DNA of 64,000 nt from Ruminococcus flavefaciens. GTDB lineage: Bacteria; Bacillota; Clostridia; Oscillospirales; Ruminococcaceae. The notes beneath the pieces were generated by a model. That model did no database searches, was not told the origin of the DNA, and saw only the letters and a list, made by a program, of their open reading frames with translations. Positions within the stretch are counted from its first letter, which is position 1. Each line of letters opens with the position of its first letter. Positions 862 to 60,296 of this stretch are shown in pieces. The translations under genes and the position numbers were made by a program. Location: assembly GCA_015067005.1 (NCBI GenBank), contig SVNH01000016.1, positions 1 through 64,000 of the forward strand. Reading direction: 5' to 3'.

Positions 862-939
862 TCGCCGTTACGGAGCATTCAGATCATAAAAAAGTTGAAG
901 GGACTGATTCAGTCAGCTGCCTTTAGCGGAAAAAGTGGG

Positions 940-973
940 TTACCGAGTCCGGAAGTACGGGCTCGGTAATTTT
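940..973 (+). terminator. Rho-independent terminator
   Basis: An 8-bp stem TTACCGAG (940-947) with CTCGGTAA (962-969) followed by TTTTAT. It ends the 184-861 transcript. Confidence 0.75.
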
Positions 974-986
974 ATGCCACGATTCC

Positions 987-1019
987 GCCGGAGGGGCTCC
1001 CCTCGGCAGTCCTTTTTTA
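987..1019 (+). terminator. Second, tandem terminator
   Basis: A GCCG-g-AGGGG stem closing on CCCCT-CGGC with a 2-base loop, followed by CCTTTTTT. It sits only 14 bases after the first terminator and insulates miaB from the upstream gene. Confidence 0.7.
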
Positions 1020-1031
1020 TTGCGTAAATAC

Positions 1032-1060
1032 TTGCAACTGCGCTGAAAATGTGCTATACT
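1032..1060 (+). promoter_or_regulatory. sigma-A promoter for the miaB-mutL-miaA-hfq cluster
   Basis: TTGCAA at 1032-1037, 17-base spacer, TATACT at 1055-1060. This is the only clear promoter between the tandem terminators and miaB. Confidence 0.75.
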
Positions 1061-1113
1061 AATTATGTATGTTTAAATGAGAGCGTATCAAAACCAGATG
1101 TGAGGTGCAGGAC

Positions 1114-2481
1114 TTGAACGATAACAGTGTCATTATCAACGAGATCAGAGAAATATACGGCAATAGACCGCATATAGCCTATGTACGCAGCTTTGGCTGT
1201 CAGCTGAATGTTTCCGACGGCGAAAAGATCAAGGGACTTCTCAGCAGTATGGGTTTCGGATTTACCGATAACGAGAACGATGCCGACCTTATCATACTTA
1301 ACACCTGTGCTGTCAGAGAATCGGCTGAGGACAGGGTTTTCGGCATAGTTGGCAGCATGAAAAAGCTGAAGGAAAATAAGCCTTCTGTCATGATCGGTAT
1401 CGCAGGATGTATGACAGCTCAGAGCCACATAGCTGAGAAGATAAAGAAATCATATCCTCAGGTGGATTTTGTTCTGGGAACTTCCGCTATAAACGGTCTG
1501 CCGGCACTTCTCAGGGACAGCCTCAGAGGACGCGGATTCGGTGCGGACATCGCTGAATATGACGATTTTTCAGCTGTTGTTCCTCAGATCCGTGACAGCA
1601 GCTTCAAGGCATCTGTACCTATAATGTTCGGCTGCAATAATTTCTGCACCTATTGTATAGTTCCCTACGTCCGCGGACGTGAGCGCAGCCGCAAGCCGGA
1701 GGATATAATCTCAGAGGTAAGAGAGCTCGTAAGCAGCGGCTACAAGGAGATAATGCTGCTTGGACAGAATGTCAATTCTTACGGAAAAGACCTTGAAAAT
1801 ACCATGAGCTTTCCGCAGCTTCTCAGGGAGATAAATGCGATAGAAGGCGATTTTATCGTGCGGTTTATGTCCTCGCATCCGAAGGACGCTTCAAAGGAAC
1901 TCATCGACACTATTTTTGAGTGCGATAAGATAGCAAAGCACCTTCACCTGCCTGTACAGAGCGGAAGCAGCGATGTTCTCAGACGAATGAACCGCCGTTA
2001 CAGCGCTGAGGATTACCTCAGCATTGTTGACTATATTTACAGTAAAGATCCGGATTTTTCACTCACTACTGATCTGATAGTTGGTTTCCCTGATGAAACA
2101 GATGAGGATTTCAGGGCAACTCTTGATATAATTAAACGTGTGAGGTATGACAATATCTACTCGTTCATTTACTCGAAGCGATCGGGGACAAAGGCGGCTG
2201 AAATGCCGGATGCTGTTTCTGATGAGGTCAAAAGCAGACGTATGCGTGAGCTCCTTGAAACTCAGAGGGAGATCTCTACCGAGCACTATAAACGCTTCAT
2301 CGGCAGACGCATGAGGGTTCTTGCTGATGATGTATCCAAGAAGAAAAAAGGCTGTATAACCGGAAAAAGCAGCGAATTCATCATAGTTGAATTCGAGGGC
2401 GATGAATCGCTGATCGGACAGTTTGTAGATGTTGAAGTGACCGGTTCTATGAACTGGGCTGTTACCGGAAGGATAGTTTGA
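1114..2481 (+). CDS. miaB: tRNA-2-methylthio-N6-dimethylallyladenosine synthase MiaB
   Basis: Radical-SAM methylthiotransferase that converts i6A37 to ms2i6A37 in tRNAs reading UNN codons. The N-terminal cluster domain has cysteines in FGCQLN, NTCAV and AGCMT (about residues 29, 65 and 99). The radical SAM CxxxCxxC lies in GCNNFCTYCIVPYVRGRERS (about residues 174-181). A TRAM domain closes the protein near residues 380-455. I prefer the TTG start at 1114, because GAGGTG (1102-1107) is 6 bases before it; a GTG at 1105 would lie inside that site. It heads a cluster with mutL and miaA. MiaA makes the i6A substrate that MiaB uses, so both steps are co-located. Confidence 0.96.
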   Translation: MNDNSVIINEIREIYGNRPHIAYVRSFGCQLNVSDGEKIKGLLSSMGFGFTDNENDADLIILNTCAVRESAEDRVFGIVGSMKKLKENKPSVMIGIAGCMTAQSHIAEKIKKSYPQVDFVLGTSAINGLPALLRDSLRGRGFGADIAEYDDFSAVVPQIRDSSFKASVPIMFGCNNFCTYCIVPYVRGRERSRKPEDIISEVRELVSSGYKEIMLLGQNVNSYGKDLENTMSFPQLLREINAIEGDFIVRFMSSHPKDASKELIDTIFECDKIAKHLHLPVQSGSSDVLRRMNRRYSAEDYLSIVDYIYSKDPDFSLTTDLIVGFPDETDEDFRATLDIIKRVRYDNIYSFIYSKRSGTKAAEMPDAVSDEVKSRRMRELLETQREISTEHYKRFIGRRMRVLADDVSKKKKGCITGKSSEFIIVEFEGDESLIGQFVDVEVTGSMNWAVTGRIV

Positions 2482-2505
2482 TATTACCGCAGAAAAGGAG
2501 TTTAT

Positions 2506-4518
2506 ATGCCGACTATCAATGTTTTGGATAAGGAAGTCTCTGAACTTATCGCAGCAGGCGAGGTCATAGAAAGACCTTCGTCGGTGATAAAGGAACTGGT
2601 CGAGAATTCCGTGGATTCAGGTGCAAAGCATATTACCGTTGAGATAAAGAACGGCGGTACTACATACATGAGAGTTACCGATGACGGATGCGGTATCTCC
2701 TTCGAGGACGTTCCAAAGGCGTTCCTTCGCCATGCAACAAGCAAGATAAGCGACAAGGCTGATCTTGATAATATCCTTACGCTCGGTTTCAGAGGTGAGG
2801 CTCTTGCTTCGGTAGCAGCTGTATCATCGGTCGAGGTAATGACCAAGCCGAAAGGTGAGACTTACGGAACTCTTTACAATATCGAAGGCAGCGTTGAGGT
2901 ATCACATGAAAAGGGCGGCTGTCCGGACGGTACCACTATAATCATACGCGATCTCTTCTATAACGTCCCTGCGCGCAGAAAGTTCATGAAAAAGGACGTA
3001 ACAGAGGGAAACGCGGTCAGTCAGATACTCCAGAAAATAACGATGTCTCATCCCGATATAGCTTTCAAGTTCATACGTGATAACCGTGTTGAGTTCAATT
3101 CAAGCGGTGACGGCGAGCTCTATTCGGCTATATATGCTATTTACGGCAGGGATTTTACACGCAGCCTTGTCGAGACGGATTATGAATATAATGGTGTACA
3201 CGTAAGCGGATATGTCGTAAAGCCGCTGTATTCACGCACTAACAGGTCTTTCCAGAATTTCTTCGTGAACGGAAGATATGTCCGTTCAAGGATCTGTACA
3301 TCTGCGCTTGAAAATGCGTATACAAATATGATAATGGTCGGGAAATTTCCGGCTTGTGTAATGATGATAGACCTCTCGCCGTCGGCTATGGATGTCAATA
3401 TCCACCCTGCAAAGGCGGAAGTAAGATTCACTGATGAGAAGAACGTTTCGGACGCTATATATTTTGCAGTTAAGAATGCCCTGAGCGAGGACGGCATGGT
3501 GTATGAATTCCGGATGAAGCCGCGTGTTGACTGGACTAAAAAGCCGGAAGAGCCTCAGGAGGTAAAGCAGCAGGAATTCATTTTCACTCCTGTTGACAAG
3601 ATCGCGGAGGCTGAAAAAAGCATAGAACAGCCGCGGAACGCTGAGATTTCTGCGCCGGAGCCTGAAACTGCGGATATTGAACCATTTTCTGCATATAATA
3701 AGCCTGCCGAAGGTGAAAAGGCTGAGGCTGCGGTAAATATTGAAGTGCCGCAGCATTCCGTTATGGAAACAGAATTGACTGAGAATGTCAGTGCTGATGA
3801 AGAAAATACTGAGCCTGAGGAAAAAGAGGAAGAGATTCCGGAGATCAAGCCTGTTGAGGGATTCAGTTATATCAATTCAGCAAGCTTCAAGAAAGCTCCT
3901 GAGCCTGTTATAATTTCGGATGAAAAGGTGTCTCAATGGACTGAAAAGCCTAAAATACGTGTTATCGGTGAGGCATTCGGAGTATATATCGTTGCCGAAA
4001 CAGATGATAAGAAATTCATACTGATAGACAAACACGCTGCACATGAAAGAATAATTTTTGAGGAATTAAAGAGCCGGAATTGCCGGCAGTACAGCCAGAT
4101 GCTCATAAACGGAGTTAAAGTTCTGCTTGCCGGAGACGATTTCAGTGCGCTTGAAGAGAATACGGAAATGCTTGCGGATATGGGATTCAGCTTTGATTTT
4201 TCGCAAAAGCCCTGTGCTGTTGCAACGGCTGTTCCTACGTTCATCATGGAACTCGATATGGAGGAGATAATCGCGGAGATAGCTGTGAATCTCAGGATGA
4301 ACAAGCATGATCCGCAGTCGCATTCGCTTGATGACCTGCTTCATACAGTTGCCTGCAAATCGGCTATCCGCGGCAATGACAAGAACAGCCTCGCTGAATT
4401 ACAGGCGCTTGCCGACAGAGTTTACAATGATGATACGATACGTCACTGTCCTCACGGCAGACCGGTAATGTTCACAATGACAAAATCAAACATAGATCAT
4501 CAGTTTGGAAGGACATAA
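2506..4518 (+). CDS. mutL: DNA mismatch repair protein MutL (endonuclease type)
   Basis: 670 aa. The N-terminal GHKL ATPase has LVENSVDSGA, DDGCGI and the TLGFRGEALASV lid. A long acidic, low-complexity linker covers about residues 345-470. The C-terminal dimerisation/endonuclease domain has DKHAAHERIIFE (the DQHA(X)2E(X)4E metal motif with Lys for Gln), ACKSAIRGND and CPHGRP, the set found in nicking MutLs of organisms without MutH. AAAAGGAG precedes ATG 2506, and the gene starts 24 bases after miaB. No mutS lies next to it inside the window, unlike the usual mutS-mutL pair. Confidence 0.95.
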   Translation: MPTINVLDKEVSELIAAGEVIERPSSVIKELVENSVDSGAKHITVEIKNGGTTYMRVTDDGCGISFEDVPKAFLRHATSKISDKADLDNILTLGFRGEALASVAAVSSVEVMTKPKGETYGTLYNIEGSVEVSHEKGGCPDGTTIIIRDLFYNVPARRKFMKKDVTEGNAVSQILQKITMSHPDIAFKFIRDNRVEFNSSGDGELYSAIYAIYGRDFTRSLVETDYEYNGVHVSGYVVKPLYSRTNRSFQNFFVNGRYVRSRICTSALENAYTNMIMVGKFPACVMMIDLSPSAMDVNIHPAKAEVRFTDEKNVSDAIYFAVKNALSEDGMVYEFRMKPRVDWTKKPEEPQEVKQQEFIFTPVDKIAEAEKSIEQPRNAEISAPEPETADIEPFSAYNKPAEGEKAEAAVNIEVPQHSVMETELTENVSADEENTEPEEKEEEIPEIKPVEGFSYINSASFKKAPEPVIISDEKVSQWTEKPKIRVIGEAFGVYIVAETDDKKFILIDKHAAHERIIFEELKSRNCRQYSQMLINGVKVLLAGDDFSALEENTEMLADMGFSFDFSQKPCAVATAVPTFIMELDMEEIIAEIAVNLRMNKHDPQSHSLDDLLHTVACKSAIRGNDKNSLAELQALADRVYNDDTIRHCPHGRPVMFTMTKSNIDHQFGRT

Positions 4519-56125: not shown

Positions 56126-57052
56126 ATGGGCATCTATAAGAAAATTACTGATATAATCGGAGGAACTCCGCTTCTTGAACTCACAAATATCGAGGAAAAA
56201 TACAATATTGAAGCAAAGATCGTTGCTAAGCTTGAATACTTCAATCCGGCTGGCAGCGTTAAGGACAGGATCGCTAAGGCTATGATAGATGATGCTGAGG
56301 CTAAGGGACTCCTCAAGCCGGGAAGTGTTATAATCGAGCCTACAAGTGGTAATACAGGTATCGGTCTTGCATCTGTTGCTGCATCAAGAGGTTACAGACT
56401 TATCATTGCAATGCCTGAGACTATGAGTATCGAGCGCAGAAATCTCATGAAGGCTTATGGCGCTGAACTCGTACTCACAGATGGCTCAAAGGGCATGAAG
56501 GGCGCTATTGAAAAGGCTCAGCAGTTAGCTGAGGAGATACCTGACAGCTTCATTCCGTCACAGTTCACAAACCCTGCAAACCCGGCTATTCATGAAAAGA
56601 CTACCGGCGTTGAGATATGGGATGACACTAACGGTAAAGTTGATATTTTCGTTGCCGGAGTTGGTACAGGCGGAACACTCAGCGGAACAGGTGCATATCT
56701 CAAGTCAAAGAACAAGGATATCAAGATAGTTGCAGTTGAACCTAAGGGCTCACCGGTGCTTTCAGAGGGCACAGCAGGTCCTCACAAGATACAGGGCATT
56801 GGCGCCGGATTTGTTCCGGAAACCCTCAATACAGGAATATATGACGAGGTCATTGCAGTTGAGAACGAGGATGCTTTCAGCGTTGGCAGAGATATTGCAC
56901 GTACAGAAGGTGTACTTGTAGGTATTTCATCTGGTGCGGCTGTATGGGCAGCACTTGAACTTGCAAAGCGTCCTGAGAATAAAGGCAAGACCATTGTTGC
57001 ACTTCTCCCTGATACAGGCGAGCGTTATCTTTCAACTCCGATGTTTGAATAA
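56126..57052 (+). CDS. cysK: Cysteine synthase (O-acetylserine sulfhydrylase)
   Basis: 308 aa fold-II PLP enzyme making cysteine from O-acetylserine and sulfide. PLP lysine in [11 protein letters not shown] (about residue 41), the substrate loop [14 protein letters not shown] and the PLP phosphate loop [12 protein letters not shown]. It is CysK rather than cystathionine beta-synthase because it lacks extra domains. AAAGGAGAAATTATT precedes the ATG. It likely has a cysteine-responsive leader and operator, and faces the Rrf2 regulator gene across a shared terminator. Confidence 0.96.
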
Positions 57053-57063
57053 AATATGTAATA

Positions 57064-57103
57064 AACTCCGCAGTAGCTGATATGCTGGCTGCGGAGTTTT
57101 TTT
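57064..57103. terminator. Terminator between cysK and the convergent rrf2 gene
   Basis: A 10-bp stem AACTCCGCAG (57064-57073) with CTGCGGAGTT (57089-57098), then TTTTT on the plus strand. It slightly overlaps the end of the minus-strand gene. Confidence 0.88.
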
Positions 57104-57536
57104 ATATACAGTAATCGCCGGAACCGGAGACGTTCTTGTCAATGATGTCCTGTAAGGTTATTCCGTTGAGGTAATCTGTAACGGCAGCGTATAATCCTTC
57201 CCATACGAACAGGGTAGAGCATTCCGAGGCTCTTGGACATTCATTCGGCTCAAATTCAAGGCAGGCTACCGGAGCAAGACTACCTTCAGTAGCTCTCAGG
57301 ACAGCGCCGACAGAGCATTCAGACGGCTTTTGTGAGAGCATATAGCCTCCGTGGTTGCCGCGGTTGGTTTTAAGCAGACCGCTTCTGTTCAGCAGCGGTA
57401 CGATCTGTTCGAGGTATTTTTTTGATATATTCTGGCGTTCAGCAATATCCTTCAGAGAGACGAACCCTTCTTCCTGATGCAGCGCGAGGTCATACAGCAT
57501 ACGCAGAGCATATCTGCCTTTGGTTGAGATCTTCAT
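57102..57536 (-). CDS. Rrf2-family transcription regulator (CymR/IscR-like)
   Basis: 144 aa from the ATG at 57536 (AAGGAG upstream on the minus strand). Winged helix: MKISTKGRYALRMLYDLA, then SKKYLEQIVPLLNRSGLLKTNRG and GGYMLS. Three cysteines in the C-terminal part (Cys92, Cys100, Cys106) recall the cluster ligands of IscR, but with spacing x7 and x5. It may sense cysteine through CysK (as CymR does) or an Fe-S cluster. The convergent cysK neighbour favours a cysteine-metabolism role. Confidence 0.88.
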   Translation of the reverse strand: MKISTKGRYALRMLYDLALHQEEGFVSLKDIAERQNISKKYLEQIVPLLNRSGLLKTNRGNHGGYMLSQKPSECSVGAVLRATEGSLAPVACLEFEPNECPRASECSTLFVWEGLYAAVTDYLNGITLQDIIDKNVSGSGDYCI

Positions 57537-57587
57537 AAATTTCTCCTTAATAAATTGTGTTGAGATGTTAAAAGACAATCTATATCA

Positions 57588-57715: not shown

Positions 57716-57955
57716 TTAAAGAGTTGAGTGGAATGTACGCGATATTACGTCGTCCTGCTGTTCTTTTGTCAGCTTTACGAAGTTTACAGCGTAACCGGAT
57801 ACTCTTATGGTCAGCTGCGGATACTTTTCGGGGTGAGCCTGAGCATCGAGAAGAGTCTCTCGTGTGAAAACGTTTACATTGAGGTGATGACCGCCTTTTT
57901 CAACATAGCCATCGAGAAGCTCTATAAGGTTATCAATTTGTTTCTGATTATCCAT
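57716..57955 (-). CDS. Stand-alone glycyl-radical domain of pyruvate formate-lyase
   Basis: 79 aa. It matches the last 75 or so residues of Escherichia coli Pfl[37 protein letters not shown] and [14 protein letters not shown]. Gly54 of RVSGYAV is the radical site, 25 residues from the end as in PflB. It resembles the E. coli rescue protein GrcA (YfiD), but here the large chain encoded upstream has no radical domain of its own, so this is the only source of it in the operon. AAAGGAG lies 7 bases ahead of its ATG. Last gene before the terminator. Confidence 0.9.
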
Positions 57956-57981
57956 ATTAATTCTCCTTTATCAGTATTATA

Positions 57982-58191
57982 TCAGTCTTCCTCGGTTTCG
58001 AGTTCGGTTGGCTGGCAGCAAGCGCCTTTGACACCGCAGTCGGTGCTGTTTACGGTCTCGACCGTAAGGCTGCCGCCGTTTTCTTCGGGAAAGATGTTTA
58101 CGTGACCAGTACCTTCAGACATCAGCTGGTCTATGAGATCAGCAAGTTCTTCCGGCGAACTGGCAGTACCTTTGATGTTGGATTCAAGCAT
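57982..58191 (-). CDS. 69-aa protein between the two parts of pyruvate formate-lyase
   Basis: Its ATG overlaps the stop of the large chain (TAATG), so translation is coupled. The N-terminal part (ELADLIDQLMSEGTGHVNI) resembles the start of the radical domain ([24 protein letters not shown]), but the RVSGYAV loop is absent. Instead there is a cysteine-containing stretch (STDCGVKGACCQ; Cys52, Cys58, Cys59) and an acidic tail. I do not recognise a known family. Position suggests a partner of the split enzyme or of its activation. Confidence 0.75.
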   Translation of the reverse strand: MLESNIKGTASSPEELADLIDQLMSEGTGHVNIFPEENGGSLTVETVNSTDCGVKGACCQPTELETEED

Positions 58192-60296
58192 TATTCTTCA
58201 CCTTTGAGTTTATCAAGATCAAGATCGCCCATGAATACGTCCATATCCTTGCCGAGAGCGTTAGGAATAATGGAGAATGTATTTGAGATACCGTCCTGAG
58301 CGTGTCTGAACGGGAGCTTTGCAACGGATGAAAGTGAAGCTACTGCGCCGTGAGTATCTCTGCCGTGCATCGGGTTAGCGCCCGGAGCGAGCGGAACGCC
58401 CTGCTTGCGTCCGTCGGGAGTGTTGCCGGTCTTTTTGCCGTAAACAACATTTGATGTTATAGTCAGGATAGACATTGTAGGAACACCATCGCGGTAGGTG
58501 TGGTGCTTCTTGACCTTTTCCATGAACTGACGTACAACAGTAACTGCAAGCTGATCGACACGGTCATCATTGTTGCCGTATTTCGGGAAGTCGCCCTCGA
58601 TCTCATAGTCAACAACAACGTTCTTGGCAACGTCGATAACATTTCCAGCCTTGTCCTTGATCTCGATGTCCTTACGGATAGGTTTTACCTTAGCGTATTT
58701 GATAGCCGAGAGCGAATCTGCAACGACTGAAAGACCTGCGATACCTGTTGCAAAGTAACGCTTGACATCTCTGTCGTGGAGAGCCATCTGAAGTCTCTCA
58801 TAGCTGTATTTATCGTGCATATAGTGGATAACATTAAGAGTGTTTACATAAAGACCTGCCAGCCACTCCATCATATCCATATACTTTTCCCATACATCGT
58901 TGAAATCGAGGTATTCGCTGTCTACCGGGCGGTACTTAGGTCCGACCTGAAGTCCGAGACGTTCGTCCACACCGCCGTTTATAGCGTAAAGGAGACACTT
59001 TGCAAGATTTGCTCTTGCACCGAAGAACTGCATTTCCTTGCCGACTCTCATTGAGGATACGCAGCAGGCGATAGCGTAGTCATCACCGTGAACAACTCGC
59101 ATCATATCATCGTTTTCGTACTGGATAGAGGAGGTCTTGATCGACATCTTAGCGCAGTATTCCTTGAACTTTCTTGGAAGTTTCGTAGACCAGAGGACAG
59201 TCATGTTCGGTTCTGGTGCAGTTCCGAGATTTTCGAGAGTGTGCAGATAGCGGAAGCTGTTCTTTGTAACGAGGTGGTGACCGTCAACATCAACACCGCC
59301 GATAGATTCAGTGATCCATGTAGGATCTCCTGAGAAGAGTGAGTTATATTCAGGTGTACGTGCGAATTTCACGATACGCAGCTTCATGATGAAGTGGTCG
59401 ATGAGTTCCTGAGCCTGCTGCTCAGTGATGAGACCGCGTTCGAGGTCACGCTGGATGTAGATGTCGAGGAAGGTCGAGGTGCGTCCGAGGGACATTGCTG
59501 CGCCGTTCTGCTCCTTGACTGCTGCGAGATAGCCGAAATAGAGCCACTGTACAGCTTCCTTTGCATTAGCAGCCGGCTTGGAGATGTCAAATCCGTAGAT
59601 CTCACCGAGCTTCTTGAGTTCCTCAAGAGCTCTTACCTGTTCTGCGAGTTCCTCACGCAGACGGATATTCTTGGAAGTCATTCTGACGAGAGAAGTCTCG
59701 ATCTGGTGCTTCTTATCCTTAATGAGGAGGTCGATACCGTAGAGAGCAACACGGCGGTAGTCGCCGATGATACGTCCTCTGCCGTAAGCATCCGGCAGAC
59801 CTGTAAGGATAGCGGAATGACGTGCGAGGCGCATCTCAGGAGTGTAAGCATCAAAAACACCCTGATTGTGAGTTTTTCTGTATTTTGTGAAGATCTCAAC
59901 AACAGAAGGATCTACTTCGTAGCCGTATTCCTTACAAGCCTGCTGAGCCATTCTTATACCGCCGAAGGGCTGAAGTGAGCGCTTGAAGGGCTTGTCCGTC
60001 TGGAGACCAACGATCTGTTCGAGGTCTTTATTGAGATAGCCGGCACCGTGAGAAGTAATAGTTGAGATAATTTTGGTATCCATATCGAGAACACCGCCGG
60101 CTTCGCGTTCCTGTCTGGAGAGATCCATTACCTGATCCCAGAGTTTTTTAGTCGCGTCGGTAGGTCCTGCAAGGAAGCTTTCATCACCATCGTATGGAGT
60201 GTAATTCTTCTTGATGAAATCACGCACATTAACTGAAGTGTGATTCCAGCGTCCTTCATTGAATCCATCCCATTCTTTTGCCCAAGTGTTAATCAT
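58191..60296 (-). CDS. pflB: Pyruvate formate-lyase, large chain without the glycyl-radical domain
   Basis: 701 aa against about 760 for E. coli PflB. Cleaves pyruvate with CoA to acetyl-CoA and formate. The catalytic pair is Cys411-Cys412 in [20 protein letters not shown], followed by [19 protein letters not shown]. The C-terminus reads [17 protein letters not shown] and stops 18 residues later, at the point where E. coli PflB enters its radical domain. The missing part is encoded by the 79-aa gene at 57716. AAAGGAG precedes the ATG. No activase (pflA) is seen inside the window. Confidence 0.93.

Follow-up and report, generated by a model that had tools for sequence, protein, structure and literature searches.

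The stretch analysed here, referred to as the window, comprises 64,000 nucleotides of Ruminococcus flavefaciens DNA (assembly GCA_015067005.1, contig SVNH01000016.1, positions 1 to 64,000), and the system in question is a pyruvate formate-lyase (PFL) encoded in it as separate chains. PFL is one of the principal enzymes by which gut anaerobes cleave pyruvate, and oxygen destroys its radical domain. Three consecutive genes on the minus strand make up the locus: a large PFL chain of 701 amino acids (aa) with the pair Cys411-Cys412 (58191-60296), a middle gene of 69 aa with Cys52, Cys58, Cys59 and an acidic C-terminal end (57982-58191), and a radical chain gene of GrcA3 type, 79 aa long, with Gly54 in RVSGYAV (57716-57955; glycine codon 57794-57796). 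The first-pass annotation, made from the letters alone, had placed the three open reading frames (ORFs) and the active residues at these same positions and had credited the large and radical genes with good ribosome sites; both are indeed preceded by AAAGGAG, and the middle gene by the similar AAAGGTG. One base is shared between the large and middle genes (TAATG), and across the 61 of 80 titled loci in which all three genes were parsed the gap between them runs from -11 to +17 bases, which suggests that the two are translationally coupled. About 70 bases upstream of the unit lies a promoter-like site (60398-60370, minus strand; TTGACA-17-TATTAT with a TG before the second hexamer, 11 of 12 consensus matches), and 3′ of the radical gene stands a terminator-like hairpin (57701-57684, minus strand) with a seven-pair stem, five of the pairs GC, and then a T-rich tail. 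Both calls are consensus matches only, and with 11 promoter-like sites in the whole window against a shuffle mean of 5.4, a single site is weak alone.

The two outer genes encode complementary pieces of one enzyme. The large chain scores 1120.7 bits against the PFL model TIGR01255 (cut-off 994.2) and covers positions 1-668 of its 744, while the 79-aa chain covers positions 662-744; no C-terminal glycyl radical domain was found within the large chain itself in this comparison. Aligned to Escherichia coli PFL (PDB 1h16), the large chain corresponds to residues 8-681, ending at about residue 681 ahead of the radical domain, and the small chain to residues 678-757, so that both chains together span the E. 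coli enzyme almost exactly, and the small chain resumes near the end of the large one, as had been proposed. The 79-aa chain holds the radical glycine plus the preceding helix and strand. It scores 82.8 bits with Gly_radical (PF01228), exceeds the cut-off of NCBIfam NF038360 (GrcA3, rad_fix_GrcA3; 167.2 versus 158 bits) and stays under that of GrcA/YfiD (TIGR04365; 98.1 versus 170 bits), matching positions 66-126 only of the latter model. The likeness to GrcA that had been drawn at the outset holds for the separate radical domain, but the small chain, scoring over the GrcA3 cut-off, had already been named in the annotation. Purifying selection acts on all three genes, with a median dN/dS of 0.048 for the large, 0.18 for the middle and 0.031 for the radical gene (first 40 parsed titled sequences per gene; 673, 336 and 625 usable pairs, respectively, of 780).

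The window genome (2.79 Mb, 99.67% complete) contains no further candidate for this enzyme in the family searches made. The Gly_radical family (E 0.001) matches only the large and 79-aa chains, and the PFL-like family only this large chain; no other PFL, full-length included, was found with these searches, leaving the split form as the only one. A single PflA exceeds the TIGR02493 cut-off (301.8 bits) and is encoded on a different contig from the split PFL (C10:110567-111262), behind a gene that reads as tRNA nucleotidyltransferase-like from its sequence.

The same split is found in 33 of 35 same-genus genomes, the other two (G011 and G022) being without any match. Beside the split, 12 of the 35 carry a third Gly_radical match, which is strong only in G028 (100.9 bits, in an 842-aa frame) and in the remaining 11 does not exceed about 31 bits. 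Beyond the genus, 20 of the 295 genomes sampled from the order score over the GrcA3 cut-off, and each of these 20 matches sits in a short frame (81-152 aa). Among the matches listed, those with lower scores come mostly from frames some 744-860 aa long, a handful being short, that of G236 (79 aa) for instance. The family sample yields 33 of 197 genomes at E 1e-42, 32 of them over the GrcA3 cut-off in short frames, with G832 below the cut-off in a 799-aa frame. At the same threshold the phylum sample yields 2 of 398, namely the window genome and G549, from another family of the same class. The 80 titled loci belong mostly to Ruminococcus, including R. flavefaciens FD-1, ND2009 and 007c and many rumen assemblies. 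The split is old and has been retained across the genus, and the short-gene form turns up again in further families of the order. Two loci titled Alistipes (L096 and L153) hold Ruminococcus-type middle and radical genes, L096 also the large gene, and probably reflect errors of labelling or binning. In assemblies Tb.RUG.491 and UBA1190 the middle gene is present in two differing copies each (L098/L117 and L116/L134), through duplication or mixed bins.

This distribution bears directly on the simplest alternative, namely that a recent frameshift or an assembly error broke a single gene and that the real enzyme lies elsewhere. Such an accident can be dismissed for practical purposes, given that 33 of 35 congeners share the split, that the genes are under purifying selection and have their own ribosome-site-like sequences, and that the genome yielded no other PFL. 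A read error, a frameshift or a pseudogene is refuted by conservation and selection alike, and the first-pass annotation was right to rule out a fresh frameshift. Its central proposal, a two-chain PFL as the normal state, stands in so far as the split enzyme is the only PFL found in the genome, is genus-wide and recurs in the order, and the comparisons made here support a normal-state PFL whose radical domain would be a separate chain. Where the proposal falls short is in the number of chains, as the middle protein belongs to the system too.

In every one of the 34 split loci known from the genus (33 same-genus genomes and the window), a middle ORF of 66-76 aa lies between the large and radical genes. 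In the family sample, strong matches to the middle gene occur in 25 of 32 split genomes and in none of the 165 others (Fisher p 1e-25), and in the order sample (E 1e-5) in 4 of the 20 split genomes and none of the remaining 275. The first half of the protein resembles the start of the radical domain, the helix and the GGHHLNVNV strand, as a degenerate copy. When 19 divergent middle proteins are added to the genus alignment, comparison of the middle and radical families with hhalign scores 33.0. The highest score among 100 column-shuffled profiles was 13.5, the reversed profile gave 9.2, and the 19 by themselves score 40.5. These divergent proteins are between-gene ORFs longer than 55 aa that pass a loose pattern, by which no ORF above that length was lost, and three genus members already in the genus alignment had been removed from the set. 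A six-frame search of the 197 family genomes with the middle profile points the same way. Besides 25 strong matches (E 8e-16 or below), it gave 40 weaker hits with E values as high as 0.01; among these, 30 coincide with the beginning of a GrcA3 chain, 9 with that of the radical domain inside full-length frames (744-817 aa), and the last one lies in G742. In an NCBIfam scan of 21 middle proteins, 12 match GrcA3 (best E 5.6e-4) and no other model recurs; a Pfam scan of the same 21 showed no recurring family, and the window protein taken singly has no match in Pfam or NCBIfam. The radical glycine loop RVSGYAV is absent from the middle proteins aligned (34 genus members and 20 others). Judged by these profile comparisons, the middle protein is partly derived from the start of the radical domain, and this partial descent, together with its co-occurrence with the split, makes the gene a member of the system and not an unrelated bystander. 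The first-pass annotation had described the outer genes as separated by another intact gene, and the intact 69-aa gene is there; what it missed was that gene's membership.

The cysteines of the middle protein invite a different explanation. Several glycyl radical enzymes have small subunits, for example 4-hydroxyphenylacetate decarboxylase and benzylsuccinate synthase, and by analogy the conserved cysteines could mark a small iron-sulfur or metal-binding accessory subunit. We regard this as improbable, since only two cysteines are invariant in the 21 divergent middle proteins, too few for a cluster within one chain, and since the first half of the protein goes back to the radical domain and the Pfam scan of these proteins gave no recurring family. 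A separate candidate, a calcium-binding protein, was rejected as chance, its troponin C/centrin matches, at E 0.007-0.04 when the genus profile is used, being no better than E 2 when a diverse one is.

The second half of the middle protein contains the conserved cysteines as well as a tail which other genomes carry on the large chain. The middle gene is lacking in 16 of the 20 split genomes of the order sample, and there the large chain ends in a cysteine tail such as DCSNGACMSPTLFEGLD, without the helix-strand copy. The same tail motif ends some middle proteins, among them that of G787, which finishes in CMEGNTACSSPTLFEGLD. A profile of 17 such tails scores at least 5 bits in 13 of 24 middle proteins, to which G787, G870 and G822 had been added by hand and in whose top scorers, G787 and G870, the motif had been noticed beforehand, compared with 1 of 480 shuffled sequences. 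Seven split genomes of the family sample are without a strong middle match, and six of them have at least two cysteines in the tail of the large chain, the motif PTLFEGLD being present in only one of these six tails (G817). Either a middle protein or a tail containing two or more cysteines is therefore present in 31 of 32 split genomes of the family sample and in 20 of 20 of the order sample, and the unit is one of three genes, or of two where the cysteine tail sits on the large chain. G822 and G894 have an operon without a middle gene and keep one at a distant site, where these middle genes (G822:C47, L237:3095-3298; G894:C37, L238:3086-3289) adjoin a gene that reads as dCMP-deaminase-like from its sequence. 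Some middle tails (PTLHEGLD) look like the C-terminal end of the radical domain (RTFHEGL) in one alignment, a likeness from which nothing is claimed.

A tree built from 71 C-terminal stretches of PFL groups the sampled split PFLs, including those of phage, in one clade (91/93), within which lie two fused PFLs (G298 L179 and G270 L180). A single clade of split forms is not rejected (p-AU 0.205), and one split plus one re-fusion or more than one split may both be compatible with the tree. The two fused proteins are full-length PFLs and present a possible case of natural re-fusion. The three-gene form occurs in both main branches and also in G549 at the base of one, so that it may be ancestral and the tail-only form derived.

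Split PFLs also occur in viral contigs. Two near-identical ones, L217 (2762-5034; IMGVR_UViG_3300031992_000074) and L218 (IMGVR_UViG_3300028833_000149), carry one in reversed gene order, a radical chain of 77 aa and then the large chain, with phage-type NrdD, thymidylate synthase and topoisomerase genes as neighbours. The large ORF holds three in-frame TGA codons, each at a tryptophan of the window PFL and of a third viral locus, L223, and from these positions the virus probably reads TGA as tryptophan. L223 itself (932-3222; IMGVR_UViG_3300028591_000126) keeps to the standard code and to the gene order seen in bacteria: its large chain, 680 aa long and ending in SLGKDED, comes first and the radical gene follows. 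Fifteen more viral loci (L219-L222, L224, L225, L227-L232 and L234-L236) have a radical-domain match, and the four PFL/PflA motifs are absent from their available stretches; a long YfiD-like N-terminus is present in at least L234-L236. These 15 radical domains could be spare radical chains supplied by phages for the PFL of the host.

What the middle protein might do is best approached from E. coli, where oxygen severs PFL at Gly734 and YfiD stands in for what is lost. A study of these complexes (PMC8683613) reports that E. coli PFL cut at residue 695 reaches wild-type activity with full or truncated YfiD once activated, and that activation falls 32-fold without residues 696-733, a segment on which YfiD depends for binding and activation and which is seemingly a recognition element. 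The reading that we favour, and hold to be probable though not secure, is that of a natural multi-chain PFL in which the middle protein acts as a dock or activation helper for the radical chain. In this scheme, the three genes would be cotranscribed and the 79-aa chain would dock in the barrel of the large chain; PflA, encoded elsewhere, would place the radical on Gly54, and the cysteine pair would receive it from there, by the route known from E. coli PFL and PFL:YfiD. The helper role is the less certain step. The helix-strand copy would replace part of the segment that corresponds to E. coli residues 696-733, and the helper might hold the barrel's open edge until the radical chain has come in, or might guide the radical chain to PflA, while its cysteine pair may sense oxidation or anchor it. 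Separate synthesis would allow a radical chain cleaved by oxygen to be replaced without remaking the large chain.

Several observations weigh against this assignment of a helper. The middle gene is not universal, being missing in 16 of 20 split genomes of the order, where there is only the cysteine tail; G882 has neither a middle protein nor a cysteine tail; and in the viral loci the middle profile finds little beyond the radical domain itself. Tail-only genomes, G882 and the viral loci together indicate that a docking role of the helix and strand is not essential to every split PFL. With truncated YfiD, the loss of residues 696-733 has a milder effect in E. coli, 2.7 versus 15.9 µM radical, or about sixfold (PMC8683613), and as the 79-aa chain, like truncated YfiD, is without a long N-terminus, a helper may be less needed here. 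The evidence for descent from the radical domain also thins when the sampling narrows: hhalign with genus sequences alone is weak (probability 13.8%, E 0.002), and for the window middle protein alone 2 of 1000 shuffles score equally high against the radical domain. An AlphaFold2 model of the large and middle chains read through as one (41 alignment rows) gave a mean pLDDT of 44.2 and a pTM of 0.47 and was not used; its middle part shows, at low confidence, a helix at 701-713 and strands at 718-723 and 730-735.

Two other readings of the middle protein deserve mention. In the first, the enzyme would be a constant spare-part system: the radical chain would be an exchangeable cartridge like YfiD, and the middle protein a plug or decoy at the edge of the barrel that shields the catalytic cysteines when the radical chain is missing, its own cysteine pair being oxidised first. 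A helix and strand kept without the glycine loop, the two invariant cysteines and the tight coupling to the large gene would all suit a plug, but two-gene genomes retain the cysteine tail and not the helix-strand copy, which argues that plugging is no general need; this account is conceivable and clearly less likely than a dock or helper. The second, bolder and a shade more doubtful still, makes the middle protein a mimic of the radical domain with the glycine loop swapped for a redox-active cysteine pair. The mimic would take turns with the true radical chain inside the barrel, stabilise the large chain, deliver the radical chain to PflA and react to oxidation, in a normal cycle of radical-subunit exchange into which rumen phages with the same radical chain would plug. 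The dock or helper nevertheless remains our preferred role for the middle protein.

Part of this system already has a name: NCBI curators call the small chain GrcA3. In the libraries searched, the small chain is a cofactor and the large chain a formate acetyltransferase, and the middle protein is without a model. No work on split PFL, on GrcA3 or on GrcA together with Ruminococcus turned up in the open-access titles and abstract openings listed, which is weak evidence because most subscription papers and all preprints were out of scope. What is new is a PFL that naturally consists of several chains and has a partner protein of partial radical-domain descent, one that those libraries leave unnamed. 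A separately encoded radical part makes the repair trick of YfiD a standing design in the Ruminococcus lineage. It also offers a natural experiment on a puzzle from E. coli, where residues 696-733 matter for installing the radical and not for catalysis (PMC8683613); in Ruminococcus, the start of this region is present as a copy in the middle protein. Just downstream of the unit lie a gene that reads as an Rrf2-type regulator (57102-57578, minus strand) and a cysteine-synthase-like gene (56126-57052, plus strand), both named from sequence reading.

The closest solved structures and characterized systems place the Ruminococcus enzyme as follows. The best solved matches to the large chain are PDB 38la_A (1129 bits) and 38lb_A (1120 bits), both named 'Formate acetyltransferase'; neither is among the 34 PDB matches of the radical chain, so that both look like large chains without a radical domain, albeit 38la, which ends right after SLGKED, may be a cut construct. 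The GrcA3 model (NF038360) names the small chain as a cofactor, and its listing is silent on a truncated sole PFL and on the middle gene. With E. coli PflB (1h16), the system shares the Cys-Cys pair region (8-681) and the radical glycine region (678-757), but PflB is one chain, whereas Ruminococcus has two chains and a middle protein that is partly radical-domain derived. E. coli YfiD/GrcA (PDB 6owr) is likewise a separate glycyl radical domain that completes PFL, and 60 of its residues align with the 79-aa chain; it differs in being a repair part beside a full-length PFL, with a disordered N-terminus of 60 residues (PMC8683613), whereas the 79-aa chain has no N-terminal extension, includes the preceding helix and is the only radical domain found in its genome. 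The nearest counterpart to the large and radical pair is an engineered one, E. coli tPFL (1-695) with truncated YfiD, described as catalytically competent once activated (PMC8683613). Compared with these E. coli assemblies, cPFL:YfiD and tPFL:YfiD, the Ruminococcus pair is encoded as such, and it comes with a third chain that bears a copy of part of the missing segment.

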